NCBI GenBank assembly: GCA_947561395.2
Contig: OX387182.1
Span: 41,099,949 to 41,163,948, forward strand
DNA length: 64,000 bases
Reading direction: 5' to 3'
DNA from: Buxus sempervirens
Lineage: Eukaryota; Streptophyta; Magnoliopsida; Buxales; Buxaceae
Position numbers and translations under genes: made by a program. Of this stretch, positions 471-49,204 are shown one piece after another. Positions within the stretch are counted from its first letter, which is position 1, and the number at the start of each line of letters is the position of its first letter. The notes under the pieces were generated by a model that was not told the DNA's origin, ran no database searches, and worked only from the letters and a program-made list of their open reading frames with translations.

Positions 471-499
471 GTCCACGTGGCAAACTGCGCCATGTGGAC
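471..499 (+). repeat. Palindrome upstream of LTR TATA box
   Basis: Inverted repeat with arms GTCCACGTGGC and GCCATGTGGAC around a short spacer, 205 bp before the TATA box of the group B LTR. It occupies the position where other Tat-type LTRs in this window carry differently sequenced palindromes. Confidence 0.7.
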
Positions 500-703
500 G
501 TCCCCCTTTCTTAACCCTTAAGTAAACAAAAATATTAACAAAAAGAGTCTTTCTTAACCCCTAAGTAGAAAATATTAACAAAAGAGTCTTTCTTAACCAT
601 TAAGTAGAAGTAATAAGTCACAAGTAAGAAATAACAATAAAAAAGTCACTTTTGATAAAAATATTTAAAATTTGGTCTTTTTTAACCCTTAAGCAACCTC
701 TCC

Positions 704-733
704 TATAAAATTGGGGGGGGGGGGGGGGGGGGG
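704..733 (+). promoter_or_regulatory. LTR TATA box followed by a 21-G tract
   Basis: TATAAAA at 704-710 is followed after TT by 21 consecutive G (713-733), where transcription would be expected to start. The related LTR at 27,253-27,260 (minus) has a TATA box next to a C tract on its sense strand. The promoter role is inferred from position and the family layout. Confidence 0.6.
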
Positions 734-1750
734 TGTGGTTGGGATGCATCAAAGGGTTGAGCACATTTTGGTTGGCTCATTTTGTCTTGATCCCATCTCC
801 CATCTCTCCCAAGCTCTCACAACCCCTGCCAAACCCTTCCTAAATCCTTTCCCTCTTCTTGTTCTTCACTTGAAACCAAAGAAGGAGACCTTGGAGGACC
901 TAGGAAGCACACAAAGGAGGTGCTCCAGCAGCCGTCCAAGCCTCAAGGAAGTGCAATCATACCACTCAAAGGTCATTTTGACCCCAAGGTAATGTTCCTT
1001 ATTACATGTTGTTGAACATATGGGAATATGAGTTAATTTGAAACACCCGAAATTTCATACATGTGTTGATATTTCTAGTACATGGTATGTGTGTGTTTTT
1101 CTTGTTTTTATACACCCTTTTTATGTCTCTAAAGATCCCTACTCCCCTAAGGTAAGAAAAAGCAACCGGTTGAACTAAAGAGAGGATGAGTTTTCTGTTA
1201 GTTTGATTCTAAGTGTTTTAAGTCGTTTTCTCCTAATACTACTGCTGTTTTTATTCTTCACTTATTAGGGGAGTGTGTTCCCCTTCATCTCTACCTCATG
1301 TAACCTCCATGTTAACCGCCTCTTTCTCTTCTTTAAATAGGTTTGGTTGGATGGCTTGTTTTTGCTTTTAGCATGAGATTAATGATAGGGCTTGTTGGCA
1401 TGTTTAGGGTAGATAATATGAATGTGTTTTTTAGTTTCACACTCTTTGATGCTTTCATATTAATCCCTTCAAGCTACTTGTAAGTAATATGCATGCTTAC
1501 CTTTTAACACATGCTCACACATGAAGCATGCTCGCTCACACACACACTTTTGTCTCATTTATAAAAATCTGTCAAAATGCATGTAGTTTCATGGTTTAAG
1601 AGCATGCATGCTAGGCTTTGTTGATGAATTTGTGTTATCCTTGTGTGATTATTGACATGTGGAGTATGAGGAACTAGGACAGGGATACTTAGGTCCCTGT
1701 CACAGTGCTGGAACATCCTAAACGACCCAGAATCACAACCCCCTTTGAAA

Positions 1751-1855
1751 GATCCGGCAACTCAGGTCGGATCAACAGAGCCTTATTCATAGCCGGCTAA
1801 AAATACCAGATACACTGAGCCTTGTGTGTAACCGGCATCTCAGGCCGGCTACACT
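1751..1855 (+). repeat. Palindrome cassette downstream of TATA in group B LTR
   Basis: Two clear palindromes: GATCCGGC...CGGATC at 1751-1773 and GTGTAACCGGC...GCCGGCTACAC at 1826-1855, with a degenerate one between. Their cores (CCGGCAACTCAGG and CCGGCATCTCAGGCCGG) nearly match palindromes in the LTRs of the gag-only element at 14,862-14,967 and 26,227-26,372. Confidence 0.75.
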
Positions 1856-2919
1856 ACTAGACAGCATTTTTGCTAATTTTGTGATATTGTGCTAATTCTT
1901 TGGTTTGTTTGATCAATCCGGATGAACCAGAAGGGTTTTCGGGTCACCCGAAAACCCAAGATGGGCCATGGACCGACTCAGTCCAATTTGAATTCCAGTG
2001 GGCCTTCCAACGGAGCCCACCAAGCCCGACAAACCCACTTTTGCTAAATGAAGACAATTAAATTAATTGAGTGGGCCAAACCCATTGAGGCCCACCAAAG
2101 CCCATTTTGGAAGCATGATGCTTAGATTTAGGCATGGTTTAGCTGAGACCAAGGGCAAGGCCTGTCGGGCCCACGAAGCCCATTGAACCCAACCAAGGTT
2201 AGGGTTTCCAAACCCTAACTCAGGAAGCCTTGGGCTTTCAAGCTCAAGCCCAGGTAAAGGGCCCCAAGCCCAAAGCCTGATCCATTTTGGCTTAGTTAAC
2301 CAAGATAATCTCAAAATCACTTGGCAACCAATTGTGTGGCCTATTCAAGGGCCCACAAAGCAATCCCGGTCCGCTTTGGCATGAAATCCACTTAAATAAT
2401 CAAACTTGAATTCGAAAATAAAATCAATCCATTTGAACCAAGCCCAAAGGGCCTCTCAGGCTAGACCGAGGCCCACCAGGGGACACGTGAGCTCAACCAA
2501 GCCCACCAAGGAATCCGCGGGCCTTCCAACGGGGCCCGCCCAATCAGACTCATCTCATATTTAACTAAAAAGATAAAATCAAGTAAAGGGGCCCACACCG
2601 CTTTGGCGGTCCCGCCAGACTTAACCAAATTGAATGCTGGAATAGGAATCGGGTGAGTGAGAGACCAAAGTTGACTCAAACCAAGGAAACCTATGGGACC
2701 TGTCACTTGACGGGGTGGACTGGGGCATCTACAGACTTCCCCGGACCACAACCGAGAACTTACTTAGAATCTCAAGCCGCAGACCAAGCCATAATAGAAA
2801 AACTTAGGCACCCAGGTGTCTGCCTGCACCCCATCAGGCAGTGGCGACTCCAGACAAATCCCTGAGGCACACATCATTTTGCATGCGCCTCGTCGTGCGA
2901 CCGAAATCAGGTGCACACA

Positions 2920-11464: not shown

Positions 11465-12208
11465 GAGACTGTGCGCACCCCATTTCGGGCCGCATGACGA
11501 GGTGCATGTGAAGTGATGCTCACCTCGGGACTGGTTTGGAGTCGCCACTGCCTGAGAGGTGCAGGCAGACACAAAAGGGCACCTATCCGGGCCTAATTTT
11601 CTGGTCTGCGGCTTATTAGAGATCTGAGCAAGTTCTCGGTTACGTGGAGGGAAGTCCGAAGACACCCTAGCCAGCCTCATCAATTGACAGGTCCCATAGG
11701 TCTCCCTGGTTCTGAGTCAACTTATTTCTCACCCAATTTCTAAGCCAGCATGCACACTTATTTGGTCTGAGTGGGGACCATTGAAGGCGTGGGTCCTTTT
11801 TTTATATTGATTTTATCTTTTTATTATTTGGTGAAGTGAGTCGGACTCGGTTCCCGTTGGAAGACCCGTGGGTTGCCATGATTGGGCCTGGGGCCCAGTT
11901 GGGTTATTGGGTAACCCATTTGGTTATTTATTCAAATTTTATTTATTTACACCTTAGATTTGGGTTTAGCGGGCTTGGAATGGGCCCATTAGCCAGAGTC
12001 AAGTGGCCTGGGGCCTGTTTATTGAAAACGGGCCCGGTTTAGGCTGGTCAAAAGTGGGCCCAAGGTGCCTTGGTGGGCCTATTTAGGTCCACAGTCCACA
12101 AATGGGCTTAAAATGGCCCAAAATGTCTAAAAGGTTGTTTCAAGCCGGTTCGGGTCAGGTCAAGTCCAACCGGGCCAAAAATTAGATTTTTTAAGTTATT
12201 TTCATAAC

Positions 12209-12314
12209 TGCCCGTATTTGCTATATGGGCGAGCCTTGCCCGTGAATATAATTCGGTTTAGGCTTGCCCGTATAGTAAATACGGGCATGCCCGAACCGTA
12301 CTGAGTTTACGGGC
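12209..12314 (-). repeat. GCCCGTAT-type palindrome cassette downstream of TATA
   Basis: Palindromes such as GCCCGTATAGTAAATACGGGC (arms GCCCGTAT/ATACGGGC, 12,265-12,285), with partners at 12,209-12,230 and 12,289-12,314. Measured along the LTR they sit at about 1.6-1.7 kb, close to the cassette at 1751-1855 in the other group B LTR. Confidence 0.75.
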
Positions 12315-13016
12315 ACTCTTGATTTTTGTAGGTTTACACTGATTTTAGCCGGGATCACTCCGGCTATCTTCTAAGGGAATCCGGCGACGTCTGTAGAGAT
12401 TTCAGGGCCTTCATATTTCTTCAGTTTCTCATTTTGGCCTAGAAAACCATCTTCTCCCTCTTCCTTTGGTAGTGGTACATAGTCCTTCCTCTCTCCATCT
12501 TTTAATTTTGTAAAATGAGAAAGGAATGAGGGAATAGGAGGGGGTTACATGAGATTATTCAAAAAAGGGCAGTCCCCTCTTGCATTTGCAAAGTGAACCA
12601 AAGAACTTTGTTTCATAAACCTACTTTCTTCTCTTTTCTCAAGGGGATGCTCATTGGTATGGGAGAACACCCACAACAATAAATCAAATAGATTAGTAGT
12701 CAAGGGAGTAAAATAAAGGAAATTCGAAGTTGCTTGAATTGCAAAATCATACTTTTATATTGAAAAGAAAGACATTAGAAGTGTAACCGTGAGACCTGGG
12801 AAAAAATCACCCGGAGATGATCATCCCTCCGTCAACACGCGGGGCTCGACATAAAGAGTGGGAGTCGCCACCATCTATTTGTTTAGGGTGTGAATGGACA
12901 CCAAAAGAATTAAACACAAGCAAAAAGAGATAAAAAGTGCTAAAAGGCAAATTCTAGAGTAAAAATAACCCTACTTGAAAATCAAATCCAGAGATGGGTA
13001 AGGGGATTAGATTATG

Positions 13017-13045
13017 AACGGGGGAAGGTGTTAGGCACCCCCATT
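13017..13045 (-). other. U5 RNA hairpin (conserved loop)
   Basis: Sense strand: AATGGGGG, invariant loop TGCCTAACACCTT, CCCCCGTT, with one T.G wobble. The same structure with different outer base pairs occurs at 24,384-24,412, 34,688-34,720 and 51,018-51,048. Confidence 0.65.
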
Positions 13046-14861
13046 GACCCACACAAGGTGGTTGCCAAGTGTTTATTCATGCTAAAAGAAAATAGAAAGC
13101 TTGCTAAAAAAATCATGAAAACCTTGAAAAAGGACAAATATATGATATCTTCACATGAAAATCCAAATGAATTCCAGATCTTCTTTTATGTTAATATCAC
13201 CTCTGGAATATCACAAAAAGATGGAAATCACAACAAAAGTTGCACAAAACCAAGTTGAGGCAAATCCGAGAAATTTGATAAAAAGTAAGGCCATTTCTCT
13301 TGAAATTAATCAAATCCAATTTTAAATTAAATCAAACCAAATCCATTTGAAAGATTAGGGTAAACAATAGTCTTATGCAAAATTTCAATTAATTCCGGTT
13401 GAAATCCCAAGAGTTATGGCTCTTTTAGGGTTGCTGCCGGAGAAAATCAAAAGTAGCAAGTAGGCAACTTTGGAAAATCACCTAGAAATATCTACTCCAT
13501 AGAAATCCGTACAATTTGGTGGCAATAAAGTTTGTATGGCCATATTTCAACAGAAACTAGCCTCATACAAAAATTCATTTGGATGTGCCTTGGGTGACTT
13601 CCCGAACAGGCCCCGAGGATCACAGATTGACCCAGAAAAATGCTGTTGAGCAGTTCTGAGTACATCTGCTCTTCATGACACAATTTAAATCAAAAAAATA
13701 TGAAACCAATTGGATTTAAAATTAGACTCATAAAGGAGTGCTCAGAAACAAAAACCACTCGAATCGGATTTAAAACGAACACATGGCGCTCCGTCAAAGT
13801 GACAAGTTCTGTATTTAAACCTGAACTGATCAATCAACTTCGACAGAGAGGTGTCAAAAATCTGCTCGATAGAAATTAATGATTTTTGGTAGACATAAAC
13901 TACACAGCCTCACCTTTCCCATCGTTCTAAAATCACTCCAAAATTCATCCGGATGATGAAGTTATGAGTGTCCGAAGTCAGGGTACAGTTGCTGTCAAGT
14001 AAACCCTATTTTGAAATAAACCAATGCAAAAATGTGATAAAGTGTGTGCAATTCGTGCAAGATGAACACAAAACCTTTAAAACTCATTCAAAGATATTCC
14101 AGAATTAATTGAGGCCATTTATTAGAGATTTATCACAATAAATGTAATAAATCCCCAAATGTGAGCCTATCCCGCCAAAATAGTGTTATGTATGTGCAAG
14201 AGTGAAAAACCATACAAGATCAATGGAACAACATAGCATGCATACATATTCATCAAAATAAGGTTCTAAAACAGCCTAGGGTTCCGTTCCATTATCCTTT
14301 CCCTTTGTTCTCTCTCCCCGTTAAACACGGTTCTTCAAGATAATCAAGGGTACTTTGAATATGAAACTGTTTGCATTCAATCAAAAGGCTTATGCAAGTT
14401 GGGTTCTAGTACTAGGGTCAATCCCCAGTCTCGTTTCTCCTAGATCCCGCCTCCACGTTGTACGGCTAGGGGGAGTCTCGAGATACTTTGAGCCGGGGAA
14501 GGATTTCCACACACAAAGAAGGCTTTATTCTACAGAAAGGTAGAAGAAGAGATCTAGATCTAGGAAAGTAAATACAGAAAAATAAATGAGGGTTGAGGCT
14601 TACCTGGGGTTCTGCAAACAATCCGGCAGCGGTTCCCTTCTTCACTCGGAGCTCTTGGATCTTCAACTTCTTGGCCATTTGCTTGAGGAGGAGCCTCCTA
14701 TTTATAGGCAAAGGCTAGGGTTGTTGGTAGACACAACTTAATGTCTAGAACCCCCCAACCTTAACCCTAGGGCTATTTCCGAGATTTCCCCTCATTTTAT
14801 GAGGGATATGATGGTAAAAAGTGATTTCTCTCGGAAAACCCTAATTTTTGAGCAAAACTTA

Positions 14862-14967
14862 TGTATCCGGCATATCAGGCCGGATACACTAAAGCTTTCT
14901 TGTATCCAGCATTTTCCATCGGATACAAAGAAAGGTACTTGTATCCGGCCTGAGTTGCCGGATACAA
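14862..14967 (-). repeat. Three TATCCGGC-type palindromes in U3 (3' LTR)
   Basis: Palindromes with arms TGTATCCGGC/GCCGGATACA at 14,862-14,888, 14,900-14,927 and 14,939-14,967, about 160-270 bp upstream of the minus-strand TATA box. Confidence 0.85.
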
Positions 14968-15536
14968 GGAAAAAAGCCTTTTTTCCAAATTTTAACACAA
15001 GCAATACTTATTTACATGTAATATCGTTTAAGTAAATGTCCTCGTATTTTTTAATCTCCATTTACTTAAGATATTACATGTAAATAAGCAAACACCCCCT
15101 CCATTTGAATCCATTAAAAATAGTTCCAGACCCAAATTCCAAGTGAATAAAAAGTCAACTTTCCAGTTCTAGGCAAAATTCTGATTTTTCAGGTCTGGAA
15201 AAAAGGTTCAATATGTTAAAACCAAGGTATTCGTCAAGATTTAAAATCTCAAAAAATTCTTTTATGCAATAACATGGCTAAAAGCCTGATTATCGGAAAA
15301 AATTATCTTGAAATCTGGCTTTAAAAAATATTTCATTTTCTTGGTCAAAAGTCAACAAAATTCAACCGGAAAAAGCTTGACTTTGCACAAAAGATTGAAT
15401 TCGGGCCTTTTCCTTTTCCGTTTTGGATTCAAATGGGTTAAGTATCTCAAACCCAATGCAAAGAATTGAAAATTCCAATAAAAGAATTCTATCCTTCAAG
15501 ATTTATCAAAAATCGTGCAATTTTGGGGTGTCTACA

Positions 15537-15550
15537 GCTGCCCCTCTTTG
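15537..15550 (-). other. Polypurine tract of gag-only Tat element
   Basis: On the minus strand AAAGAGGGGCAGC directly precedes the 3' LTR start TGTAGACA. Confidence 0.75.
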
Positions 15551-18723: not shown

Positions 18724-20510
18724 CTAGGATTCTCCCTTTTCAATTGCTTCTGCTTCATTTTCTTCTTGTATGAAGAGTGATTCCATACCCTTCAGACAAT
18801 CATTATCGTCCATACTGAATTCTTGTTCAACATCCCGTGCTAGGCCACTTGTTTGCCCAAACTGCTCAAATGGAATTGTTTGCACTTCCTCTGCCCTTTC
18901 ACCTGTCATTTCATTTTCTTTCACCTTCGGCTTAAAATCTGCCCCTGTGTGAGTCTCTTTCTCCACATTGCCCCATTCATCCTCTTTTTCAAAATAAACT
19001 TGGATTGTGGTACCAACTGGGGCAATGAGTTGAGAAGGGTCAAATCTTTTTTTTCCTGAAAAAATTGACCCTATTGCATTTGAGCTGCCTGCCCCATTGT
19101 TGCTGGTGGGAGGAGGAGTGGGTGTGACTGAATTGAATGATAAAGAGTTATTATCCAGCAAGTCCTGAATTGCATGCTTTAAGGCCAAGCAACGATCAGT
19201 GGTATGCCCTGGAGTGCTCATATGATACTCACAAATTGCAGATGGATCATAACCCTTCCCCTTGCTTGCATGAGGATTTGGCAACCTCAAAGTCACATAA
19301 CCCTTTTGAAGTAGGGTAGGCAAAAATTCAGATGGTCTCATAGGCAGTTTTGAAAACTCCCTTCTCTTCCTTACTTCTGTTTCCTCCTTCACAGGATATG
19401 CAAAGGGGACATTAATTTGGATAGGCAGCAAAGGAACTGGATGGGCATTGATTTGAACGTGTCCCTTGGGAAGCTGCACCATATTCACTTCTACTTCTCT
19501 CCTTTCCTCAGATTTTTTCTTTCCATTTCCATTTCCCTTGTTATGAATGGAGTCTTGTTGACTGACCAAGGCGGAATAATCAATTATCTTGCCAGATTTG
19601 ATCCTATCATCAATCCGGTCGGCCACTTGTACCAGGGCAGCAATATTGGTGGTGATCTGACCCACCAAATGGTTGTAGAAGGGCTGCCCCAATGTGCCCA
19701 CAAATGTTGAGATTATTTCAGGTTCCAGCATAGGCGGCCTGACCTGGGAGGCGGCCTCTCTCCACCTCTTGGCATACTGCCGCACAGTCTCTTCTTTTCC
19801 CTTACTCATCCTCATCATGTCGTACCGGTCTGGCACAATCTCCGAGTTAAACTTATATTGGTTTAGGAACGCGTCGGCCAAGTCCTTCCACTTCCTGATC
19901 CTTCCATGGTCCACTGTGGCGAACCACCTAAGAGCTGACCCGGTCAAACTCCTCTGGAAGAGTTGGATCAGTATGCCATCATCCCGGCCAAATTGGCATA
20001 GGGCCCCGCAGTATAGTTTCAAGTGGCTCATAGGACAGCCTGTGCCATCATATTTGTCGAAGTTTGGGCACTTGATCTTGGCCGGTAGGCCTACATCTGG
20101 GTACATGCACAGGTCATCGAAGGTGGTACCTCCATAGCTGTTTCCCCCTTCACCTCCTTCAGTTCTTCCTGGATCCTCTCTATCTTGTGCAGGAGTTTTC
20201 TTTCCATCTCCTCTCTGGCTTTTTCCTTCTCCATTTCTTTCTCAGATTCTATAGTGTTTTCCCTGATCAGGATAGGCTCAGGGACTGGTTCAGAAATGGG
20301 CTCAGGCATGGGTTGAGCCGAAGGCGGAATGTAGGCTTGAGGTGGCGGTGCTTGATGGGAAGTAGAGGCTTGGTTTTGGGCTTGGGCTTGTTGGGCCTGA
20401 GCCGCCAGTAAGTCCCCCAGCATTTTGGCTAGACCAGCAACTTGCTCCTGCAGCTGAGCAAAATCTTGAGCGGGCACAGTGGCTTGAGCCTGATTCTCTT
20501 CAGTATTCAT
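18724..20510 (-). CDS. gag: Tat-lineage gag of the gag-only element (fossil)
   Basis: Codes for a structural polyprotein that forms the cytoplasmic virus-like particle. The start MNTEENQAQA (ATG 20,508-20,510) matches MNPAEEQ of the 55.4-kb relative. It opens with a Gln/Ala- and Pro-rich tail and a charged helical segment. The retrotransposon gag core follows (LYCGALCQFGRDDGILIQLF, LRWFATVDHGRIRKWKDLAD, VRQYAKRWREAASQVRPPM), nearly residue for residue the same as in the relative. A CEYHMSTPGHTTDRC motif of the Tat gag C-terminal type comes next, then an acidic tail. The core contains no breaks; the whole region carries about one. Preservation of the core while pol is absent suggests gag mattered for its spread, but that is inference. 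Confidence 0.88.
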
Positions 20511-22215: not shown

Positions 22216-22495
22216 TTTTTTTTTTTCAAATTTGCTGAATTTTCTCAGTTTTCAAGTTCAAAAGTTGATTGACACATGTTTGAATTGAATTGATATCAAA
22301 AAATATGACACCTTAGCTTGTTCTTTGAGTTTTAACATTATGTTTAATCTTAAAGGAATATATATATTTTTTTATTTTTTTTATTTTTTTGGACATTTTT
22401 ATATTTTCTTTGGGGTGCCTAAGGATTATCCATAGTGTTTAGGCATTTTATTCTGAAAATTCGAGCTGGAAAAGCCAATTTATTCATTTTCTACA

Positions 22496-26372: not shown

Positions 26373-27252
26373 GAAAAAAGCTTTTTTTCCAAATTTTAAC
26401 ACAAGCAATACTTATTTACATGTAATATCGTTTAAGTAAATGTCATCGTATTTTTTAATCTCCATTTACTTAAGATATTACATGTAAATAAGCAAACACC
26501 CCCCCATTTGAATCCATTAAAAATAGTTCCAGACCCAAATTCCAAGTGAATAAAAAGTCAACTTTCCAGTTCTAGGCAAAATTCCGATTTTTCAGGTCTG
26601 GAAAAAAGGTTCAATATGTTAAAACCAAGGTATTTGTCAAGATTTAAAATTTCAAAAAATTCTTTTATGCAATAACATGGCTAAAAACCTGATTACCGGG
26701 AAAAATTATCTTGAAATCTGGCTTTAAAAAATATTTCATTTTCTGGGGTCAAAAGTCAACAAAATTCAACCGGAAAAAGCTTGACTTTGCACAAAAGATT
26801 GAATTCGGGCCTTTTCCTTTTCCGTTTTGGATTCAAATGGGTTAATTATCTCAAACCCAATGCAAAGAATTGAAAATTCCAATAAAATATTTCTCTCCTT
26901 CAAGATTTATCAAAAATCGTGCAATTTTGGGGTGTCTACAGTAACCTACTAGTAACTCCTTGATTTGGTGATGTCGAGGTACTCCGAGAATTTCGGCAGC
27001 GCTTCCGCATCTCCTTGAATTTCCAAAATGAATTTGAAAAGGGGTTTGTTGGGTTCCTATGTTTAAAGGATGAAAGAAAATGTTTGATCAGAGTTTAGGG
27101 ACAGCATAAGGGTATTTTGGGCATTTCTAGAACTAGGAATTGGGATGGCAGCACTTGGGCAGGCTTCAGACATGGAAATGACAAAGTGGGAGAGCAGGGA
27201 GGCTAAGGGGGAAGGCTTACACAAATTGGGGGGGGGGGGGGGGCTGGCCCCC

Positions 27253-27489
27253 TATTTATAGCCAAAATTTTTGTGCCCGTATTTGAAGTATGGGCATGCC
27301 TTGCCCGTACTTCAAATACGGGCGTACCTTGTCCGTAATTCAAATATGGACGAAAAACGCACATTTTCAAATCTCGCAAAATCGGCCGCACGGGACGCGT
27401 GTCCCGCCGTACAACGACACGCGTCCCCTTCTAGAAGCTTGCCCGTATTTGAAATACGGGCATGCCTCGTCCGTACTTCAAATACGGGC
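27253..27489 (-). promoter_or_regulatory. Group B LTR TATA box with upstream GCCCGTAT palindromes
   Basis: TATAAATA on the minus strand at 27,253-27,260. Five palindromes of the GCCCGTAT/ATACGGGC type lie directly upstream on that strand, at 27,274-27,296, 27,303-27,323, 27,331-27,351, 27,441-27,461 and 27,469-27,489. A 16-base C tract (sense) lies just downstream at 27,228-27,243. Confidence 0.75.
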
Positions 27490-28071
27490 GTGCACGTTTT
27501 TAAAATGCTGGATTTCAAATGTTTTATTAAATTTGATTTATTTAAAGATTTTTATCCGATTTTTGATTATTTTATCATAAAAAACAAGATTCTTTTATTA
27601 AAATATTATTAAAAAATAAAGATATTTCTATTAAATGATTATTTTATTTATTTAATTCATTTATTCTGCTTTTTGCTGCTGTTTTGCCACATGGGCAGCT
27701 TTCTTGAAACTTGAACTGTCCATAACTTTTCTGTCTGATGTCCGATTTTAGCAAATTTGGTGTCGTTAGAATCGGCTCGGAACCCACTATCCACTAGGAT
27801 CAAATTGGGTAGTTGAATTGGGGTTGAGCAAAAATTCAACTTTTGCTCCCCCAAAAGTTTGATCAGCTCATAACTTCCTCATCCAGACTCCGATTCTGGC
27901 AAACTCAGTTGCGTTGGAACCGTATTGAAATGCTCTTTTCAATGAGAGGAAATTTGATGGCCAATTCTCTTTGGATCAAAAAGTCAAATTTTGGCCCCCT
28001 TAGGGTTTGACTTTTTAATTGAAATTTTCATTTTCTTCATTTTTTTGGGGTGCAAAAATCAGGTGCTAACA

Positions 28072-29894: not shown

Positions 29895-31193
29895 GAAGGC
29901 CTCTCCATCATAGAGGAAATGCATAAAGGAACTACACTTAATCCTAACGAAGATAGACACATTTCACTACTAGCTAAATTATGGATCCATAATAGGCTAT
30001 GCCCGCTAAGACACAAGCCAAACAAAACCTAAACCATAACATGTGAATATCAGTCCTCATGACAAAAAATATAGGTGTAATGCCCTCATGGCAAAATAAT
30101 CAGCATTTATAGCCCTCATGGCCAATTATAAATAAACATGACCCTCATGCCCAATATCAATGTCAATAGTGCTCTCTTGGCAAATCCACTCTCTTATAGA
30201 GATAATTTTATGTTTATTGCCCTCATGGCAAGATATCAATAAACATGACCTTCACGATCAATATTAATGTCAATAATGCCCCTTGGCAAGACTAATTGGC
30301 CCAAAAGTTACGGCCATTAATTGGCTAAAGACATGGTTGATAATAGCTCACGTGTTCGCCATTAATTGGCTTAAAACATGGTCGATAACGGCTCATCGGA
30401 CATCGTCTAGTTGAGGTACATGCAAGAATAAGAGAAATACCCTCCCTCATTGGGGAAGAACTTAAGTTATTCAAAACTGTCAAAATCCAAGAAATAAGAT
30501 CAATCTATCCAAAATCTGTAGAAAACATTTTCTTACTGTTCCAGAGCTTTAAACATCTTTAAAACATACTTTTACAAGTGTTAAAACCAACTTGTGGACA
30601 CCCCAAAATTACACGATTTTTGATAAATCTTGAAGGAGGGGAATATCGTATTGAAATTTTCAATTCTTAGCATTGGGTTTGAGATCCTTAACCCATTTGA
30701 ATCCAAAACCACAAAGGAAAAGACCCAAATTTAATCTTTTGCGCAAAGTCAAACTTTTTCGGTTGAATTTTGTTGACTTTTGACCCCAAAAAATGAAATA
30801 TTTTTTAAGGCAAGATTTCAAGATAATTTTTCCCGGTAATCAGGTTTTTAGCAATGTTATTGTATAAATGATTTTTTTTAGCCTTTAAATCTTGACAAAT
30901 ACCTTGGTATTAACAAGTTGAATCTTTTTACTTGATTTGAAAAACCAGAATTTAGCCTTGAACTGGAAAGTTGATTTTTTATTCACTTGGAATTTGGGTC
31001 TAGAAAATTTTTTTAATGGATTCAAATGGAGGGGTGTTTGCTTATTTACCTATAATATCTTAAGTAAATGGAAATTAAAAAATACGAGGACATTTACTTA
31101 AATGATATTACATGTAAATAAGTATTACCTGTGCAAGTAAGGGTCAAGGCTATGCAGAATCTGTGCAAACATGCCATTTTGGTCTTGTCCGCA

Positions 31194-31264
31194 TATGGTA
31201 TGTGGTTTGGACAAAACCGCATATAGTATGTAGTTTGGACAAAACCGCATATTATATGCAGTTA
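31194..31264 (+). repeat. AACCGCATAT-type palindromes in U3
   Basis: Imperfect palindromes such as AACCGCATATTATATGCAGTT, repeated with a TTTGGACAAAACCGCATAT linker, about 200-270 bp upstream of the TATA box. The arms resemble the AACCGCA/TGCGGTT palindromes of the 48.8-kb element. Confidence 0.7.
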
Positions 31265-31798
31265 CGTTCAATTTGCGTAATTTTGCAAATACTCGATTTC
31301 TGAGCCATATTTACCACTCTTACCTCTCTTCAGGAGACTCGACCTCCCTTTTTTACCCTCCATAATTCAAATATTTACTCCAACTCATGTTTAAAAACTG
31401 AGTTGGAAGAATCTAGAACCAAACTTTGGCATACCCTTGTGACCTCCCATGCCCTTGAGTTTGCCTATAAATAGAGGGCCTCTCCTCAAGCAAATGGCTG
31501 AGAATTGAAGCTAGAAGAGCTCCAAGAGAAGAAGAGAACCCATGCCTCTTTGCTTTCTTAAACCCAAGTAAGCCTCTCTCCCTTCTCCCTTTCTGTAGAA
31601 TAAGGCCTGTATGTGGTTGTAACCCCAAACCTACCTCGAGTATCTCAAGAATCCTCTCTAGCCGTAAAATGTGAAGAGAGAGCTAGGGGAAAGGAGAACA
31701 GGAATGGATCCGTAGGATAGAACCTTATTGTGTTATGATCTTTTATATGTCTTTTAATATTCAGTTTGTGGTGTTATTATGATTTTATTTTGAATTTA

Positions 31799-37583: not shown

Positions 37584-37626
<43 letters not shown>

Positions 37627-39905: not shown

Positions 39906-40154
39906 TGTTGGAAAAACGAGAGGGAAAACATGGAAAAACAGAGAAGCTTGAGAGAAACTTCAACCAACAATTGTTTGGTTGATTCTTAGTGTTCTGTCTC
40001 TTACAATTCCAGGAGTACATGTTTGTAGTGATACCTTGTAAATGACATTGCAGTAATGAAAACAACTTCCAAGATAAATCAAATACCAGCATAGTCAAAG
40101 CACAACTAACTACACTATTAATAGTGTTTCTGGAAAACTACATTAGCTTTAATA

Positions 40155-42075
40155 CTCCTCCTTGATGTATTTTTCTGAAACTCCAAGCATCGTTCTTAAG
40201 AGCTGAAACTTATCTCTAGGAAGAGCTTTTGTAAAAATGTCTGCAACTTGCTCTTTAGAGCTGCAAAATTTGAGTTCAATTTCTCCCTTCGCTGCAACTT
40301 CTCTTAAGAAATGGTACTTGATTGCAATGTGCTTAGTACGACTATGATGAACTGGATTCTTAGCCATAGCAATGGCAGATTTATTATCACAATAAATCTC
40401 CACTGGACCTTGCTGTTTTTCTCCCATGTCTTCAAGAATTCTGTTCAGCCAAATAGCTTGATTTACAGCTCCAGCTGCTGCCATGTACTCAGCTTCTGCA
40501 GTTGACTGAGCAACAGTAGCTTGCTTCTTTGATCCCCAAGAAAACACTCCTGATCCTAAATTAAAACAATACCCTGAAGTGCTTCTCATGTCATCAACTG
40601 AACTAGCCCAATCACTGTCAGTAAAGCCGGTTAATTTTAAGTGGGAACATGACTTGAACCATATGCCAAAATCCATAGTACCCTGCACATATCTAAGAAC
40701 TCTTTTAGCAGCACCAAAATGAACTTGGCTTGGACTTTGCATAAACCTGGACAGCAAACTAGCAGCATACATAATGTCAGGTTGAGTGGCAGTTAAGTAC
40801 AGCAAACTGCCAACCAAACTCCTGTAAACTTCAGCATCTACTTTCTTAGCCCCATCTTCTTTTTTTAGCTTTTCATTTGCTACTACAGGTGTTGCTACTG
40901 TTTTGCAACCAAGCATTTTGAATTTCTTCAACAAGTCTTCTGCATATTTCCTCTGTGATATGAAGAAGCCTTCTTCTTGACAAGCCTCCATTCCAAGAAA
41001 GTAATGCATTAACCCCAAGTCACTCATTTCGAAGGTTTTCATCATATCTTGCTTGAACTCTTCAATCATTTCTGGATTATTTCCAGTAAAGATCAGATCA
41101 TCAACATACAATGAAACTATAAGCAAATCTTTACCCTTGAATTTCACATAGAGTGTAGGCTCACTCATGCTCCTGCTGAAACCTTGATCACTAAAATAGC
41201 CATCAATTTTTCCATACCAAGCTCGGGGTGCCTGTTTGAGCCCATATAGAGCCTTTTTCAATCGTAGAACTTTCCCTTCTTCCCTTATAAAGCCCTCTGG
41301 TTGCTCAACATAGACTTCTTCTTCTAGAACACCATTGATAAATGCTGACTTGACATCAAGTTGAAAAATCTTCCAACTTTTCTGAGCTGCAAGTGCAATA
41401 AGCGTTCGGATTGTGTCTAACCGAGCAACAGGTGCAAAAGTCTCATTGTAATCAATCCCTGGCCGTTGTGAATAGCCTTTAACAACAAGCCTTGCTTTGC
41501 ATTTTTTTAAGGAACCATCAGAGTTAAGTTTTATTTTGAAGATCCACTTAACCCCAATAACTTCTTTGCTGTCAGGACATGAAACCAGCTCCCATGTTTC
41601 ATTTTTTTTCTATCATTCTGAGCTCCTCCTCAATTGCATCTACCCAAATCTTTTCTTTTACAACTGCTGCAAAATTTTCAGGCTCTACAGAGGAGTAATT
41701 GCAAGATTCAAAAATCTCACTTAAGGACCTTACCCTTCTAGGTGGAGATTCTGGTGAAGAAGTTTCTTCCAATATGCCTTCAGATCCAAGCGATGAACTT
41801 GGAGTCATTGGTAGATTTCCATGCCCTTCATTTCCTTCATTTTCAGTCTCAAAAATAGGTAGATGAGATTCTCTTCTTGCTGGTGTAAGGACAATTTGTT
41901 TTGACATGCTTTCTTCATCCCAATTCCAAGTGGCTTGTTCATCAAACTCTACATATCTACTTGTGACAAGCTGTTTTGACTCTAAGTTATAGAGTCTATA
42001 TCCCTTGGATTGAGTGCTATATCCAAGAAAAACTCCTTTCTCAGATTGTCCTTCAAGCTTGTGCCTTTTTTGTGA
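40155..42075 (-). CDS. pol: Copia reverse transcriptase and RNase H region (fossil)
   Basis: The reverse transcriptase copies element RNA to cDNA and the RNase H removes the template. Visible motifs are KKALYGLKQAPRAWY, LIVSLYVDDLIFTGN (catalytic YVDD) and the connection region LVGSLLYLTATQPDIMYA. The RNase H follows with FTDSDWASSVDDMRSTSGY and IYCDNKSAIAMA...HHSRTKHI. The linker between integrase and reverse transcriptase (KGVFLGYSTQSKGYRLYNL) lies at the upstream end. Carries some breaks. Confidence 0.9.
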
Positions 42076-42084
42076 AGGAACATG

Positions 42085-45050
42085 TGTAACGCCCAGAACC
42101 CGGGTCAATGCAAACCGGCACCTAACCCGAACCCGGTTCGCTACTGTAACAACCCAAGTCCGGTTCAACAACCAAACTCGAGGTGTTACCACGAAGCTAG
42201 GGTCCGATACAAACCAAGATTCACAATAATTTTAAAATTTACAAATTAATTACATCAGAGTTATGGTGGCCAATAACAACAATTCTTTATTCAATAATAT
42301 CAATTCTGTTTACAATAAAGTTTATCTAATCAACATGTGGCATTAATACCAATTATATTTCTACCCATCAAATTAAAACCCCATCTTTGCGATCTCTCCA
42401 AGCAACCTAAAAAATAGGGGAAAACGGAGTGAGATTTACATCTCAGCAAGTAGCAGGTGCATGCAATTTGAAACAGTCCAATATAAGCAAATAGTCATGA
42501 GGTATTCGATTAATCAACGATAAGACGAGAAATCCAAGTTATTCATGGCAATTACAAATAAGGCAATGAAACATATGATAATGCATAAATACCAGTCTCT
42601 TGATGTTAAAGAGGTAAAACCGACAAAAGCGATAAAACACGTGCCATTGCAGGACTCACAAAGATGATAAGTATTTGAGATGACACTCGACTAAATGCTG
42701 TTCCACCGTGCGGCTTAGGGGCAGTGCTACTTAATGATACTCAAGCCCCCATGCAGCGCAGCTTAGGCAAGAGCCGTAGTCACTGACTTATTGCGCACGA
42801 ACCCCGCAGAGTTGGACGTACCACCAGAATGCAGCACCAGAATCAATACATGGAGTGTGGTCGCTTATCCACATGTACAGGGAATCACCAGCGGCTCACC
42901 GGGGTGTCCCTCCAGACATAGGACCCTCCCAGAGCAAACTAACTTGCAAAGGGAAGCGCGCTCGCAATATAGGAGTAAATCAACCCAAACTAAATACCAC
43001 TTAGCTAACCAGCCAAAACTATGGATCCATATACAGCTAAGCCCACTGACACAAACCACGATAAAACCACATACGGGAGGACACGCTAATGTAGGAGGCA
43101 TACACACTTTTACCCGTAAAGGATTACACATCTCTACACAGAGGATTACCCATCTCTGCCGTAAAAGATAGTATCAAACTCCACCATAGAAGCCGTATCA
43201 CCCAACCGTAAAATTAAAGAGAACAACATCATACCACATACCAATCCATACCAAAGTATTCCATTCCGTGTGAAATCCATGATTCAATCATAACAAATCC
43301 AATTATAGGCATTTTCAGAATAACATATGCAATTCTTCCAATTATATTCAAAATAAAACTCAAGTATCATAAATCCGATAAAATCAGAGTTTATGAAATT
43401 CTAGCAGCCAATATTCCTATTTAAAGCTCAAAATAAAGTAAATCCAATCTTACTTAGAGTTTTCTTTATTAATCCCTTTTATTAGAATCCAATTTCCTAC
43501 CTTAGCACCTAAGCTAGTTTCTATTTGAATTTTCTGTATTTTATTTTTCCAGCATGTTCTACAGACCTAGAATGAAGTTTAAAAGATGTTTATAAGCTAT
43601 AAATTTCAGTAGTATTATTTCTAGCAATATCCATACCCTTTGACTCTTTTATAAACAATCCTTTCATCATAACCTTCAATTTATTGCTTAATCTTTAAAA
43701 ATTAATTTTATAATTTTTATAGCTTAATTAGGTCGTTATAAAGATGCTAACATGCTTAACTAATCATAAGAATTATTGGATAGTTATTCGAATTACAAAA
43801 TCCCCAAAATCTACAAATTTTACTTAGAGTGCTTACCTCTACAAGGCTGGGCAATCCTAGGCGATCCTAGGCGCTCGTGCAATTTTTATCAGAATTTTCC
43901 AGATTTTCCAATTTCGGATTCTTATGCTTTTGCTTTATGTTTTCTTGGTCTAAATTAATCTACAAACTTTCTGAAACTTACCTAGAGCCTTCTAGAGTAA
44001 TTTTTATGAATTAAATACCCTCCTACCGTTATTTACATAATCCAACTAAACTTTCTTCTTTAATTTGATAAATCCATCAAGAATACAAATCATGAAAATA
44101 TAAGCAACTTGATTCCATGTAAATACAGTTCCGTCTAATCCATTCTAACCATATGAAATCACAGAAATCAAAATCATGCAGTTCCTCAAGTTTTCTAAGA
44201 GTTACTATTCGCCTTATACGCTAAATCCTTCTTCTATTGCACCTTCTAATTCTGGACCAGAATGTTGCTCCCAACCGCACTAAGCTAGACTCTTCCAATT
44301 CAAATCTCCACCGTACAAAATATAGTTCCATCAGTGAAGAACAAAACCTCCAAATTTGAAGACGATCCACCGTACGGATTGTCCCCGATCGCGTTTTGAT
44401 GGTGGCTGGTCAGACACCTCCATTAGAAACCTCCTTCCTTTCTCTCCCTCTTTTCTCTCCATAAGAAACCCACGAAAATTCCCTCTTGTCTAACCTTAGT
44501 CTCCTATTTATACTAGGCTTTAGAAATCCTAAACCAACCCTAATTGGCTAATTTAATTTGGGCTAACCCAACCATGGTCTAGTTAATGTCTAATCCTTCT
44601 AATTTAATTCCTACTTTTTCTCCACCTTCTATTTTCCACTTAAACAATACTAATTAAGTTTCTTATTATCTAAACTCATGAAAATAACCTATTTTCGTGC
44701 AAAATATTTAATTAAACATTTTTATCACTTAAAACCTTATTTTCTCCAAATTAAGACGTGAAATCTCCTAATTACCCTTTTTCCCACTTTTAGGCTTTTA
44801 TTAATTTCTTTTAATTTCTAACTTGTCAAAATAATTTGTTTTCTTCTATTTTCTAATTCTAATTATTATTTGATGATCTATTTACTAATTACCCTTTTCT
44901 GGAAATTACCAAAATACCCTTTTTATTCTTTTAGGCTAATTTCATTAAAATTCTTTCTTTATTTTTAACTTAGAACTTATTTGGATTAATTATCCTCTAA
45001 ATCTTCACTTTTTATTTTAATTAGGACTTAACTCATATTTTATTTTATTT

Positions 45051-45090
<40 letters not shown>

Positions 45091-45115
45091 TTAGGTGAAA
45101 ATTCGGGGTTTTACA
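42085..45115 (+). mobile_element. Del/Tekay-like solo LTR inserted in the Copia element
   Basis: A 3031-bp segment TGTAACGCCCAGAAC...TTCGGGGTTTTACA with a perfect 5-bp target duplication ACATG (42,080-42,084 and 45,116-45,120). No coding, primer site or second LTR, so a solo LTR. The ends form an extended imperfect inverted repeat (TGTAAxxCCCxGAA). A TTTA microsatellite lies at about 45,046-45,092 near its 3' end. Other copies of the family occur at 2920-4866, 29,641-29,894, 29,895-36,728 and 48,420-48,824. Del/Tekay is inferred from LTR ends and length. Confidence 0.85.
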
Positions 45116-45120
45116 ACATG

Positions 45121-47180
45121 AATATAGCATATGCAGCCAAAAACCTTCAGATGACTTGCAGTAGGCTTTTGACCACACCAGGCCTCAATAGGAGTTTGAT
45201 TTGGGACTGATTTTGTTGGACATCTATTGAGCAAATAGATTGCTGTGTTAACAGCCTCTGCCCAAAACAATTTTGGAAGACCTTTCTCCAACAACATTGA
45301 TCTGGCCATCTCCATAACTGTCCTATTTTTTCGCTCAGAAACTCCATTTTGCTGTGGAGTGTAAGCTACTGTTAATTGATGTTCCATCCCCTCTTCTTCA
45401 CAGAATTTATCAAATTGCCTTGAGTTATACTTAGTACCTCTATCACTTCTCAAAGTCTTGATCTTGCAACCACTTTGATTCTCAACTAGTAGCTTATACT
45501 TCTTGAAAATCCCAAAAACTTCAGATTTTTCTTTGAAAAAATAAACCCATATCATCCTTGAATAGTCATCTATAAACAAGATGAAATATTTGTTTTGGCT
45601 TAGAGAAAGTGTTCTCATTGGGCCACACACATTAGTATGAACAAGTTCCAAAACATTTTTTGCTCTCCAAGCTTTTTCTGTAGGAAAAGACTGTCTATGC
45701 TGTTTTCCTAGCATACACTCTTCACATATTGGCATATTCTGGTCTAAGAGAGGTAAATCTCTTATCATGCCCTTTTGATCCAACAATCTTAGTGCATTAA
45801 GGTTGTAGTGTCCAAACCTTTGATGCCAAAGAGTTGTATCATCAAATTTAGCCATCATAGCTTTTGGACAGTGCCACTTAATGGGAAAATTTCTGCCATT
45901 TCCCATTTTCACTTCAGCCACTTCTTGATTATTGTTCTTTAGATCATAAATAGTGCATAACTCCCCTAAAAAGTGTAGAGAGTACCCATTCTGCATCATT
46001 TGACCAACACTTAGAAGACCTTGATCGAGACTTGGAACAAATAGAACATCCTTGATGAATCTGGTTCCTTTCTTGGTTTCCATAGTGATTGTGCCTTTTC
46101 CTTTTGCTGCTACTAATTCATCATTCCCCAATTTGACCTTTACATTTACAGACCTATCAATTTCTGAAAACATACCTTCATCTGGAGTCATATGATTGCT
46201 GCACCCACTGTCTAGAAACCATTCTTTATTCTTCTGATCAACAGTGGCTTGACATGCAAAGAATAAGTGCTCCTCCTTGTCTTCTGTATAATTGGCCTGT
46301 TGATTCTTGTTTTTGAACCGACAGTCCTTCTCAACGTGGCCAAACTTCTTGCAGTTTGTACACTGAGGCTTTCCAAGATGAAAACAATCCTTTTCCAAGT
46401 GATTTGTCTTCTTGCAAACACTACATGGTGGAAATGCTCCTTTTGGAGTTCCCTTGTTCTGAGAATACTCTCCTCCTTTTGGTGTGCCTTTAGACTTCTT
46501 CTTGAAATCTTTTTGTTTCTGGTTTTTCAGATTAACTTTCAGCTGAAATGCATTTTCTAGAGGGACTTCACATCTTCTGTCAATTCTTTGCTCATGAGAT
46601 TGTAATGATCCCATCAACTCAGTGACTGTTAAGGTTGAAAGATCCCTGGATTCTTCGATTGCAGCAACCACGTGATCATATTTTTCTGTCAAGCTAATCA
46701 AGATCTTCTAAATAACTCTCACATCAGGTACCTCTTCTCCATAAGCACGCATCTGATTTACAACCTCAATGAGTCTGGAGCAATAGTCTTTTGCATTCTC
46801 AGATTCCCTCATTTTGAGATTTTCAAGTTCTCTTCTTAGACCTTGAAGCTTGATTGTCTTAACTTTATTATTTCCTTGAAACTCTTGTTGTAGAATCTCC
46901 CAGGCCTATTTTGAAGTTGTTGCTCTCATCAATCTTGGAAAGATTGCTTCAGTCACAGTTTGTTGTAAAGTAAACAAGGCTTTAGAATCTCTTTGCTTGT
47001 CAATCTTGTTTTGGGTTAAATCTGAAGTGTCTTCTGCTGGAACAGAAACTCCACTTTCAACAACATCCCAAAGATCAAGTGACAGGAAGAGAGTCTTCAT
47101 CTTGATACTCCAATAATCATAGTTCTCACCACCAAATATAGGAATAGTGGTAGAAGAACCAAGAGCAGCCATAACGCCCT
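45121..47180 (-). CDS. gag-pol: Copia gag, protease and integrase region (fossil)
   Basis: Minus-strand order: gag start MAALGSSTTIPIFGGENYDY (near 47,170), zinc knuckles CSVCKKTNHLEKDC and CTNCKKFGHVEKDC (46,310-46,430), then the aspartic protease motif WFLDSGCSNHMTP (near 46,200). Integrase follows with its HHCC zinc site (LWHQRFGHYN...CEECMLGKQH) and DDE core (FIDDYSRMIWVYFFKEKSEV and TPQQNGVSERKN). Residue patterns are those of TNT1-like plant Copia. It carries some breaks. Confidence 0.9.
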
Positions 47181-47463
47181 TCACAGATCGAAGATGCTCC
47201 GATACCAATTGTTGGAAAAACGAGAGGGAAAACAGGGAAAAACAGAGAAGCTTGAGAGAAACTTCAACCAACAATTGTTTGGTTGATTCTTAGTGTTCTG
47301 TCTCTTACAATTCCAGGAGTACATGTTTGTAGAGATACCTTGTAAATGACATTGCAGTAATGAAAACAACTTCCAAGATAAATCAAATACCAGCATAGTC
47401 AAAGCACAACTAACTACACTATTAATAGTGTTTCTGGAAAACTACATCAGCTTTAATAGTTTC

Positions 47464-47760: not shown

Positions 47761-47929
47761 TCTATCAGATCATTGACCTCGGAGAGATTATTCAAATAAA
47801 TGGTCGAACCTAGGTGCCAATTTTCTGGTTTGTGTGTAATCTATGAGTCCAACAGTGTGATCATTTTGTTAGATATGATTTAGGTCTCTCTAGAAGAGCT
47901 CCACCTAAAGACATAATCCTAAACAGTGA

Positions 47930-48215
47930 ATTGAACCCACCCAGAGCTAGCTCCACGGATCTTCAGGAAAGTTGGGAGAATCTTGAATCACTTATCAAAA
48001 CTAGACGCTATTAGAGAGGATATAATGGAATGGAAATAGGCAAAATTCACTATTAGAAGCTGCTATGAAGTAATAAAATCAAAGGGAGAACAAGCAGTTT
48101 GGTCGAGATTAGATGGGTTTCCATGGTGCATAAATATATAAGCTTTCATTCTTTGGCATAGTGTTAAATACCGTTGCACCTAAATTCTTAAGCTGATAAG
48201 AGGGAGGGCCTAAAT
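47930..48215 (+). mobile_element. Second LINE fragment, zinc-binding (zf-RVT) region
   Basis: Plus-strand reading AKFTIRSCYEVIKSKGEQAV, then WSRLDGFPWCINI, AFILWHSVKYRCT and LIRGRA, separated by three in-frame stops. This matches the zf-RVT pattern of plant LINEs (FSVKSAYxLL...W..IW...P.K..FLW....R..T...L..RG). Opposite in orientation to the LINE at 47,464-47,760, so a separate fragment. 47,761-47,929 and 48,216-48,419 show nothing recognisable. Confidence 0.6.
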
Positions 48216-48419
48216 AAAATATCTCAACACTTCCTCACATGTGTGATTTCGTATAGGAATATGCATGGGGAGGACAAACACATATGGGGCACATACATCC
48301 TGGATACAAATAGATGTCAACTTATCCTTGGTAGTTGAACACAAGACGTCCCGCTTTGGTACCATGTCCACTTATCTTTGGTACCAAGTGCATTTTTTGA
48401 TTGAAGATATTATTATTGT

Positions 48420-48824
48420 TGTAACACCCCGAATCCGGGTCATTTTTTTTTCCAAAAATACTCGGATCAAGGCATTAACTTGTGGTACATTACAATCAGT
48501 TCAAATATAAGGAAATAAAGAACTAAAATTTATCAGAGTGCTAGGAAGCTTAAATCATTTATTAGAAACTGAATCTCCCTATTACATCAATTAATCAAAT
48601 GGAAGGCAACTACAAATTAACTAACTCTTAATATCCTACCAAATCATCTATTATGATTCCAATAAAATAAATACAACTATATAAAATTATCCTACTCTTT
48701 TCATATGGAATTTCTAGACTTCAACCCACTATCTGTCTAACCCGTGGCGTCCTCTCCAAGATGACCTGAAAAATAGAATATAAAGTAGGGGTGAGATACG
48801 AATATCTCAGTAGGTAACACATGC
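48420..48824 (+). mobile_element. Del-like LTR start, interrupted by the Tat element
   Basis: Begins TGTAACACCCCGAATCCGGG and follows the LTR at 42,085 and 2920 through GTGAGATACGAATATCTCAG and TAGGTAAC (48,791-48,818). It stops at the Tat element start, 48,825. The remainder is beyond the window. Confidence 0.75.
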
Positions 48825-48937
48825 TGTAGACACCCCAAATTGCACCCCGATGTAAGAGATTAACTAAGAAAGGCTCCTAAGGTCTTATTTGAGCCTTGAC
48901 ATGTGTCAAACTTTCAAAAACAATCAAAATCAGTGCC

Positions 48938-49204
48938 AACCGCATTGTGTATGCGGTTTTTATAATTTCGGTTTCAACCGCTCTGTATGTGCGGTTGCAA
49001 CCGCACAGACAGCACGGTTTAGGTCCTTGCTTGTTGCGCTGGCGGCCACGTGGCTTCGCGAAGCTTCGGCCGTTAAGCCGCGTGGACAGCACTCAATTAA
49101 AGCATAACTGAATTGAACCGTTCTGTATATGCGGTTTGGTCGAATTGGTATTGAACCGCACTTTGAGTGGCGGTTCTGTGGAAACCGCACTGAGTATACG
49201 GTTT
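48938..49204 (+). repeat. AACCGCA/TGCGGTT palindromes in U3
   Basis: Six palindromes of about 22 bp: 48,938-48,959, 48,975-48,997, 48,998-49,020, 49,116-49,137, 49,153-49,176 and 49,182-49,204. All have AACCG arms and CGGTT partners with variable centres, 200-470 bp upstream of the TATA box. The type recurs in the leader and in the 3' region. Confidence 0.85.

Follow-up and report, generated by a model that had tools for sequence, protein, structure and literature searches.

Several Tat-type long terminal repeats (LTRs) lie within a 64,000-nucleotide stretch of the Buxus sempervirens genome (C1:41,099,949-41,163,948 of 676.5 Mb; hereafter the window), and they raise the question of what the short palindromes near their TATA boxes are. 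A first-pass annotation of the window had described these palindromes as differing in type from LTR to LTR while keeping their place, and had proposed a modular, exchangeable element, perhaps a dimeric protein site or a set of transcript hairpins. We analyzed the palindromes in the window and in samples of related LTRs, all from this one plant genome. Every palindrome named in that annotation is present, at about the position it had been assigned. Most of them carry a common core, CCG-N11-CGG, on which half-site words differ between families, and a dimeric DNA-binding factor would be its probable reader.

A common core in the palindrome arrays

The arrays of the window are given here by position and strand; U3 is the unique 3′ region of the LTR.

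471-499, plus strand: G-box-like inverted repeat of group B, GTCCACGTGGC...GCCATGTGGAC, without a CCG-N11-CGG core; a different kind of site
1745-1860, plus strand: group B array on the downstream side, with exact dyads at 1754 and 1832 and AACTCAG as the d1 centre
12203-12320, minus strand: CCCGTA-type array in the downstream part of the B'' LTR, its exact dyads at 12240, 12268, and 12296; two of six half-sites are AACCG
14855-14975, minus strand: TATCC-type array in the U3 of group A, its exact dyads at 14867 and 14945; TATA box at 14707
22471-22640, minus strand: leader array of element A, with the word ATCCG in its exact dyads at 22501 and 22540; absent from the first-pass annotation
26220-26380, minus strand: group A array in U3, with four dyads, of which two have an exact core and two a core with one mismatch; TATA box at 26072
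27268-27495, minus strand: CCCGTA-type array in the U3 of B'', five dyads recognized by eye, of which those at 27305, 27443, and 27471 are exact; TATA box at 27261
31185-31270, plus strand: C array, CCGCA type; TATA box at 31465
48930-49212, plus strand: AACCG-type array in the U3 of D, with five dyads at N11, one at N12, and a G-box-like palindrome in the middle; TATA box at 49404
52848-52945, plus strand: D leader array, each of its three dyads AACCG-N11-CGGTT, 0 of 200 shuffles; likewise newly found
63340-63440, plus strand: D post-pol array, each of its two dyads AACCG-N11-CGGTT; likewise newly found

A scan of the whole window returned 26 exact CCG-N11-CGG sites: 17 in the cassettes already reported, 7 in the three further arrays, and 2 isolated (28,778 and 51,188). 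The core is common to the TATCC/TATCCGG, TATCCGAC, CCCGTA, CCGCA, and AACCGC types. The half-site words do differ from LTR to LTR, as the first-pass annotation had noted, but most types share this core, which it had not seen, and we therefore rejected the view that they are unrelated. The exception is the repeat at 471-499, which that annotation had listed with the other cassettes. Its half GTCCACGTGGC has 381+398 matches in the genome, compared with 41+39 for the backward control. The TATA side of the U3 with this repeat aligns in 3 of the 12 fetched group B relatives (L115, L116, and L118); in the other nine the fetched stretch has no such U3, though all 12 keep the downstream array, with at least one exact dyad in each. 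The sequence upstream of that conserved array differs among these relatives (L109-L120), and in L109 TATCC-type dyads surround a CG-rich palindrome directly before a TATA-like box.

The spacing was counted in 16 LTRs picked by their 5′ end, independently of palindromes: every fifth of the first 80 among 100 listed of the 10,467 matches to the LTR 5′ terminus genome-wide (0 for the backward control), all within the first 8.3 Mb of one contig. CCG-Nk-CGG occurred 49 times at k = 11 (shuffle mean 0.43, maximum 2), 0 times at k = 10, and once each at k = 9 and k = 12, and all 16 LTRs held at least one k = 11 site. L134 and L149 have no TATA match, and their entire 900 bp was counted as upstream in this and the inverted-repeat counts; dyads without an exact core were left out of the core, pairing, step, word, and per-LTR counts. 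The other samples are biased to the most similar matches. They comprise 30 of 40 scored matches each for A and C (the best-scoring of 1809 and 2721 candidates, respectively, including both window A LTRs and the window C copy), 20 of 40 loci each for D and B'', and 12 of 40 places for group B. We rejected counting such copies as independent observations; those of A and C are the top-scoring members of their candidate lists. Among k = 7-15, the spacing of 11 was the commonest in A (96 sites), C (40), D (95), B'' (73), and the group B downstream array (31). The C copy of the window has no exact core; of the 29 others fetched, 24 carry an exact dyad. In L049, a dyad of a C-type cassette is the direct insertion point of a short-flank Tat LTR (word TGTATCCGAC).

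Spacings of 24, 37, and 39 were also raised, because of the periodicity of the arrays. Steps of 39 bp made up 60 of 66 intervals in A, 16 of 19 in the group B downstream array, and 19 of 20 in 13 pattern-picked loci, and they occur also in the sampled TATCC types; the 13 loci were among 100 listed of 6,604 matches to the AACTCAG-centred dyad DNNNNNCCGNCAACTCAGGNCGGNNNNNH (0 in the control), a search pattern that itself contains N11. Steps of 28 bp made up 12 of 16 intervals in C, were the commonest in B'', and occur also in CCCGTA types. Genome-wide, there are 163,369 sites at N11, compared with 43,280 at N10 and 40,613 at N12, whereas the reversed-letter controls show no peak at 11 (126,325, 143,005, and 105,655 at N11, N10, and N12). 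The direct repeat CCG-N11-CCG occurs 34,845 and 35,448 times on the two strands. The excess of CCG-N11-CGG over its neighbouring spacings is thus ~120,000 sites, a large-scale amplification of one dimer-like site in the genome. We infer that Tat elements account for this excess, the sites placed in LTRs being those of the samples.

Palindromes upstream of the TATA box

Inverted repeats were judged against 500 dinucleotide shuffles of the same stretch. The 16 sampled LTRs held 36 upstream of the TATA box (1.48 expected) and none downstream of it (1.92 expected). Fourteen of the 16 had at least one; L141 and L149 had none at that threshold. These two hold four and two exact dyads, so that a generic inverted-repeat caller was rejected as the sole test and the spacing test described above was added. 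In the window, none of the 500 shuffles reached the observed inverted repeats in the two group A cassettes, the B'' cassette at 27,274-27,489, or the D cassette at 48,938-49,204. The remaining four cassettes are weak alone, being reached by 9 (471-499), 25 (1751-1855), 29 (12,209-12,314), and 27 (31,194-31,264) shuffles of 500. A palindrome density above that of shuffled sequence, as anticipated in the first-pass annotation, is thereby borne out for the sample and for four of the cassettes. That the palindromes keep their place is correct insofar as they lie between the LTR start and the TATA box, but there are two spacings and not one: of the 14 sampled LTRs in which a TATA box was matched, 13 have their last exact dyad 159-210 bp from it and the remaining one, L139, 371 bp, and the upstream array of B'' is only ~15 bp from its TATA box.

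Tat LTRs are also contained in a tandem array at C1:8464677-8557139, where seven pairs of LTR 5′ ends, 508 bp apart within the pair, recur with a period of ~15.3 kb.

Half-site words of the families

Arrays occur on both sides of the TATA box, in U3 on the upstream side and within the LTR on the downstream side, as well as in leaders and after pol. All 20 half-sites of exact dyads in the three D arrays read AACCG, and all 12 in the two LTRs and the leader of A read ATCCG; CCCGTA is found in most half-sites of B'', the U3 array of which is centred on a palindrome with GGGACGCGTGTC and GACACGCGTCCC. One further dyad of the A leader (22618) has a core mismatch and other flanks than the ATCCG dyads. 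The count of full words in the D leader, the D post-pol array, and the A leader was reached by 0 of 200 shuffles in each case; for the D post-pol array, the core alone was reached by 1 of 200. The earlier proposal of family-specific sequence at a fixed place holds for these words, with the qualification that they sit on the common core. Arrays of one element also align with each other: the A leader and A U3 arrays are identical at 105 of 135 positions, and the D arrays at 71 of 90 (U3 and leader), 66 of 96 (U3 and post-pol), and 42 of 54 (leader and post-pol), all above 200 shuffles. There is consequently no support for the view that the arrays of an element acquired their common word independently.

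Pairing of the arms

In the U3 arrays of A, D, B'', and the 16-LTR sample, the arms pair about equally well with other dyads of the same LTR and within their own dyad. The within/across values were 1.00/1.00 for A (positions o1-o3), 0.99/0.99 for D (o1), and 0.84/0.78 and 0.69/0.55 for the sample (o1 and i2); the inner positions of D pair poorly (0.53 and 0.38). Because pairing across dyads about equals that within them, the arms of the U3 arrays follow a common word and not only the partner arm.

Stem covariation, as a hairpin would show, was found for the pattern-picked d1 sequences (24 distinct among 100 listed). Both sides had changed at 6 of 11 stem pairs, 4 of the 11 being fixed by the search pattern; 42 cells were double-changed, a number reached by none of 500 shuffles (16.9 under shuffling), 94.3% of all cells were paired, and the covariation vanished when the partner arm was slid. 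A conserved d1 centre together with paired arm changes would suit a hairpin, but here the search pattern had imposed the centre. In the LTR-start sample, the centres averaged 3.50 of 6 matches to CTGAGT (control maximum 2.58), and CTGAGT and ACTCAG were present in 5 and 6 of the 36 distinct dyads. A double-stranded site would allow both orientations, whereas an RNA loop on one strand would not. The first-dyad centre appears flipped between the closely related LTRs L137 and L144 (ACTCA and TGAGT, respectively), which is expected of inversion between palindromic arms.

Mismatches, read in LTR orientation and counted as distinct over the six sets, comprised 83 A.C, 49 G.T, and 62 others, with B'' having 10 of each of the first two. 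G.U-type mismatches are therefore not in excess of A.C in the transcript strand (49 versus 83), as they would be for a hairpin. Of the two possibilities offered in the first-pass annotation, these patterns favour putative double-stranded dimer sites for the U3 arrays and make hairpins less likely there.

Exchange of promoter blocks between LTRs

The first-pass annotation had pointed to near-identical cores in the group B downstream array and group A, and they are present at both: CCGGCATCTCAGGCCGG at 1832 compares with CCGGCATATCAGGCCGG at 14,867, and AACTCAG-centred dyads lie at 1754 and 14,945. The group B array (1745-1860) is identical to the two A arrays at 76 of 102 and 73 of 99 positions (scores of 50 and 44; shuffle maxima of 26 and 21). 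Its 300-bp flanks exceeded the shuffle maxima in none of eight comparisons with A flanks, so that the likeness of the arrays is greater than that of their surroundings, as had been predicted.

The unit of exchange was examined with a matrix of 19 representative LTRs, each split into 5′ flank, cassette, and promoter, with the cassette borders set by hand in 7 of the 19. A long 5′ flank (567-614 bp) is common to eight LTRs with TATCC, CCGCA, or CCCGTA cassettes (scores of 68-96), and long flanks compared with short ones scored 7-36; the 36 belongs to L149 compared with L138, whose final stretch ahead of the cassette is already part of the other module. Promoter scores were 64-68 between long-flank A and short-flank L145 but 7-15 between A and C, which have the same flank. 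Among the TATCC LTRs, L134 is divergent, scoring 25-35 in the promoter and 9-25 in the cassette. The signal was moderate for the cassette (14-47) and weak for the promoter (7-24) when L149 was compared with the other CCCGTA LTRs, and weak for C compared with the AACCGC type (cassette 12-22, promoter 17-32). These scores indicate that cassette and core promoter recombine as one block against a separate 5′ flank, clearly for the TATCC type and more weakly for the others. The modular, exchangeable element of the first-pass annotation is thus supported, but the matrix rejects the palindrome alone as the unit.

An imperfect palindrome of ~82 bp, ~75% identical to its own reverse complement, occurs at 15007-15088 and 26411-26492 in A (minus strand) and at ~31041-31122 in C. 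It closes the long U3 flank on the 3′ side, immediately ahead of the cassette, and similar sequence is found in L134 and L149. In L121/L122 and other paired matches, GATC-type dyads and dyads with TATCC-type stems are often ~0.85-1.3 kb apart and mostly in opposite orientation; they look like the upstream and downstream arrays of one LTR type, because a TATA match lies beside one of them in L121/L122.

Elements of the window

The elements that carry the arrays are as follows.

703-711, plus strand: TATA box of the first group B LTR (TATA match); the LTR start may fall outside the window
12789-15537, minus strand: LTR of the group A gag-only element, 96.7% identical to 24156-26941
18724-20241, minus strand: gag open reading frame (ORF) of the group A element (Pfam Retrotrans_gag, 1.1e-10)
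24156-26941, minus strand: other LTR of the group A element, from the LTR pair comparison
30593-31133, plus strand: long 5′ flank of the C LTR, common to group A despite the other cassette (88.8% over 543 aligned positions; flank matrix)
48825-51239, plus strand: LTR of the D element, its start from the terminal motif and its end set at the primer-site match at 51240
55384-62797, plus strand: gag-pol of D in several ORFs (Pfam Retrotrans_gag, RVT_1, RT_RNaseH, RVT_3, rve)

Element D encodes RVT_1, RT_RNaseH, and RVT_3 in 59160-61637 and rve in 61583-62797. A second RNase H (RVT_3) hence follows the reverse transcriptase-RNase H, with the integrase after the reverse transcriptase, and we placed D by RVT_3, which we take to be a mark of the Tat lineage. 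The D ORF at 56623-59211 (plus strand), between gag and reverse transcriptase, holds a G-patch domain (Pfam, 1.8e-6), and a ~77-bp tandem repeat in the D leader (53627-55010) gives rise to repetitive minus-strand ORFs. In element A, gag is the sole ORF of at least 250 amino acids between the LTRs, without a reverse transcriptase with dual RNase H; A was placed with Tat because its gag region matches that of D (75.8% over 712 aligned positions) and its primer site is similar. Element A is nested inside the minus-strand group B LTR, B''. The cassettes at 12,203-12,320 and 27,268-27,495, given as 12,209-12,314 and 27,274-27,489 in the first-pass annotation, belong to one B'' LTR interrupted by this insertion. 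The C LTR starts at ~30,593. Pieces of a Copia-type polyprotein were recognized by eye from ORFs at 40149-46707 (minus strand), between flanking repeats at 39906-40154 and 47210-47458 that are 98.8% identical.

Discussion

The near-fixed spacing, the words shared across dyads, and the centres found both ways round are consistent with the dyad arrays being two-fold symmetric sites for a dimeric sequence-specific DNA-binding factor with family-specific words, and we consider this the probable explanation of the sequence patterns. The dimer would read the constant CCG-N11-CGG core plus the family word, each family would be addressed by its own factor or factor variant, and the factor may set promoter activity or protect the element from silencing. 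Mosaic LTRs would result if the reverse transcriptase switched template from one co-packaged RNA to another. If a protein does read CCG-N11-CGG, it would serve abundant plant repeats as a major regulator or as a way of escape, and they would form a large pool of its binding sites.

A number of observations weigh against dimer sites. In the group B downstream array, pairing is specific to the dyad (0.96 within and 0.25 across at o3; 0.96 and 0.36 at i1), and the 13 pattern-picked loci likewise pair better within dyads at o3-o5, so that one word per array fails to explain the downstream arrays. The arms of C pair only partially, B'' lacks the preference for a centre, and in C that preference does not exceed the control. 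CCG-N11-CGG is missing upstream of the TATA box in the first group B LTR, two of the six downstream half-sites of B'' deviate from its word (four conform), copies of D hold a further 18 sites at k = 12, from one dyad (20 copies), and the steps between D dyads are mostly 117, 23, 67, and 38 bp, with none of 28 and few of 39 bp. The word common to the arrays of A and to those of D may stem from array duplication, because the arrays align, and N11 could be inherited from one ancestral array and not selected, because insertions and deletions are rarer than substitutions. The D gag-pol, the A gag, and the Copia-type coding stretch contain no CCG-N11-CGG, an absence that is not significant because shuffles of them average only 0.04-0.3 sites (0.3 for D gag-pol). 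Among D leader ORFs of at least 90 amino acids, the longest has 111; that ORF and one post-pol ORF gave no Pfam match when scanned.

Dyads acting in the transcript as stem-loops, for packaging, stability, or small-RNA processing that feeds silencing, would account for the complementarity of the arms, the paired changes at 6 of 11 d1 pairs with their 42 double-changed cells (16.9 in shuffles), and the dyad-specific pairing of the downstream arrays. Every array but the 5′ U3 copy would lie within the element RNA, and a report on maize Sireviruses is said to link LTR palindromes with small RNAs. The deficit of G.U-type mismatches, which an RNA stem tolerates, relative to A.C nevertheless speaks against stem-loops, as do the fixed N11 spacing, although loops may vary, the centre in both orientations, the U3 arms that match other dyads about as well as their own, and the poor inner positions of D; we regard hairpins as an unlikely explanation overall, although they may apply to the downstream arrays. 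The paired d1 changes and the dyad-specific downstream pairing would also follow from mutational upkeep without function, in which a switch of template at quasi-palindromes, whether by reverse transcriptase or during replication, would copy arm onto arm and let the dyads persist and spread passively; the flipped d1 centre of L144 and L137 is its expected by-product. Such upkeep predicts neither a constant CCG-N11-CGG over several flank types nor one word among dyads with different centres in the same array, and we judge it the least probable of the explanations.

A host-factor version of the dimer-site interpretation is that the arrays are ordinary stress or hormone promoter boxes for known host transcription factors, varying by drift; it overlaps with that interpretation, and the two are not mutually exclusive. 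The position upstream of the TATA box and the G-box-like palindromes in B and D fit such boxes, and there are precedents in the U3 regulatory boxes of Tnt1 relatives and Rider (PMC1838419, PMC3316501, and PMC6762207). Arrays also occur, however, in leaders and after pol, and a narrow search of open-licence PubMed Central (PMC) listings, aimed at LOB/LBD factors, returned no plant factor with a CCG-N11-CGG site. LOB/LBD factors as readers were set aside, those listings holding nothing on their spacing, and remain a lead. We find ordinary promoter boxes possible but rather doubtful. A more elaborate form of the dimer-site interpretation is a family-coded address, in which a constant dimer frame and a family word in U3, LTR, leader, and post-pol positions would be read by a co-evolving factor, encoded by element or host, that activates or protects the family in the manner of VANC, with promoter blocks traded between families. 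We offer this scheme as speculative, and as unlikely in its entirety.

Comparison with known systems

Gal4-type sites, CGG-N11-CCG, are trinucleotide half-sites 11 bp apart that are bound by a dimer. The Tat dyads have the same 11-bp gap with the opposite polarity, an analogy only; to our knowledge, Gal4's fungal protein class is not expected in plants. The Tnt1 group belongs to Ty1/copia. Families of Tnt1, Retrolyc1, and Retrosol differ mainly in the U3 regulatory region, which has been termed modular evolution (PMC1838419), but the passages of that paper available to us give no common spaced core such as that of the Tat arrays.

VANC-bound motifs offer a functional analogy. According to PMC5735166 and PMC10398659, they are short, arrayed in the non-coding regions of VANDALs, and present as family-specific variants, and binding causes loss of DNA methylation (anti-silencing); VANDALs are DNA transposons that encode their own binding protein (PMC5735166). 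The Tat arrays resemble them in being motif arrays in non-coding regions with family-specific variants, but VANDAL motifs are arrayed in one orientation, whereas the half-sites here alternate as dyads.

Within open-licence PMC listings, we recognized no description of palindromes in Tat LTRs; a paper on Sireviruses turned up, and its repeated-motif (RM) boxes are the closest known counterpart (Bousios et al. 2010; PMC2829016). They are palindromic and dyad-symmetric and are clustered in many copies upstream of the TATA box in the LTR, with further copies upstream of env in env-bearing Sireviruses. Their sequence is element-specific on a common CGG/CCG signature with divergent flanks, their clusters define CpG islands, and the motif was called Sirevirus-specific, being absent from that paper's classic Ty1/copia set. 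The likeness lies in palindromic boxes clustered upstream of the TATA box, 36 here where 1.48 are expected. Sireviruses, however, are Ty1/copia, whereas element D is Ty3/gypsy Tat by its domain order, and the Sirevirus CGG-CCG spacing is 4-6 bp (counted on Table 3 of PMC2829016), compared with the near-fixed CCG-N11-CGG here. The trinucleotides are the same but in outward order here, with CGG-Nk-CCG found also between dyads and inside the CCGG types. We conclude that the Tat arrays are the same kind of thing as the Sirevirus boxes, found in a different superfamily and set apart by their polarity and by a spacing that is longer and fixed. Taken with the Sirevirus boxes, they suggest that retrotransposons of distant lineages make use of CCG/CGG dyads close to the promoter.

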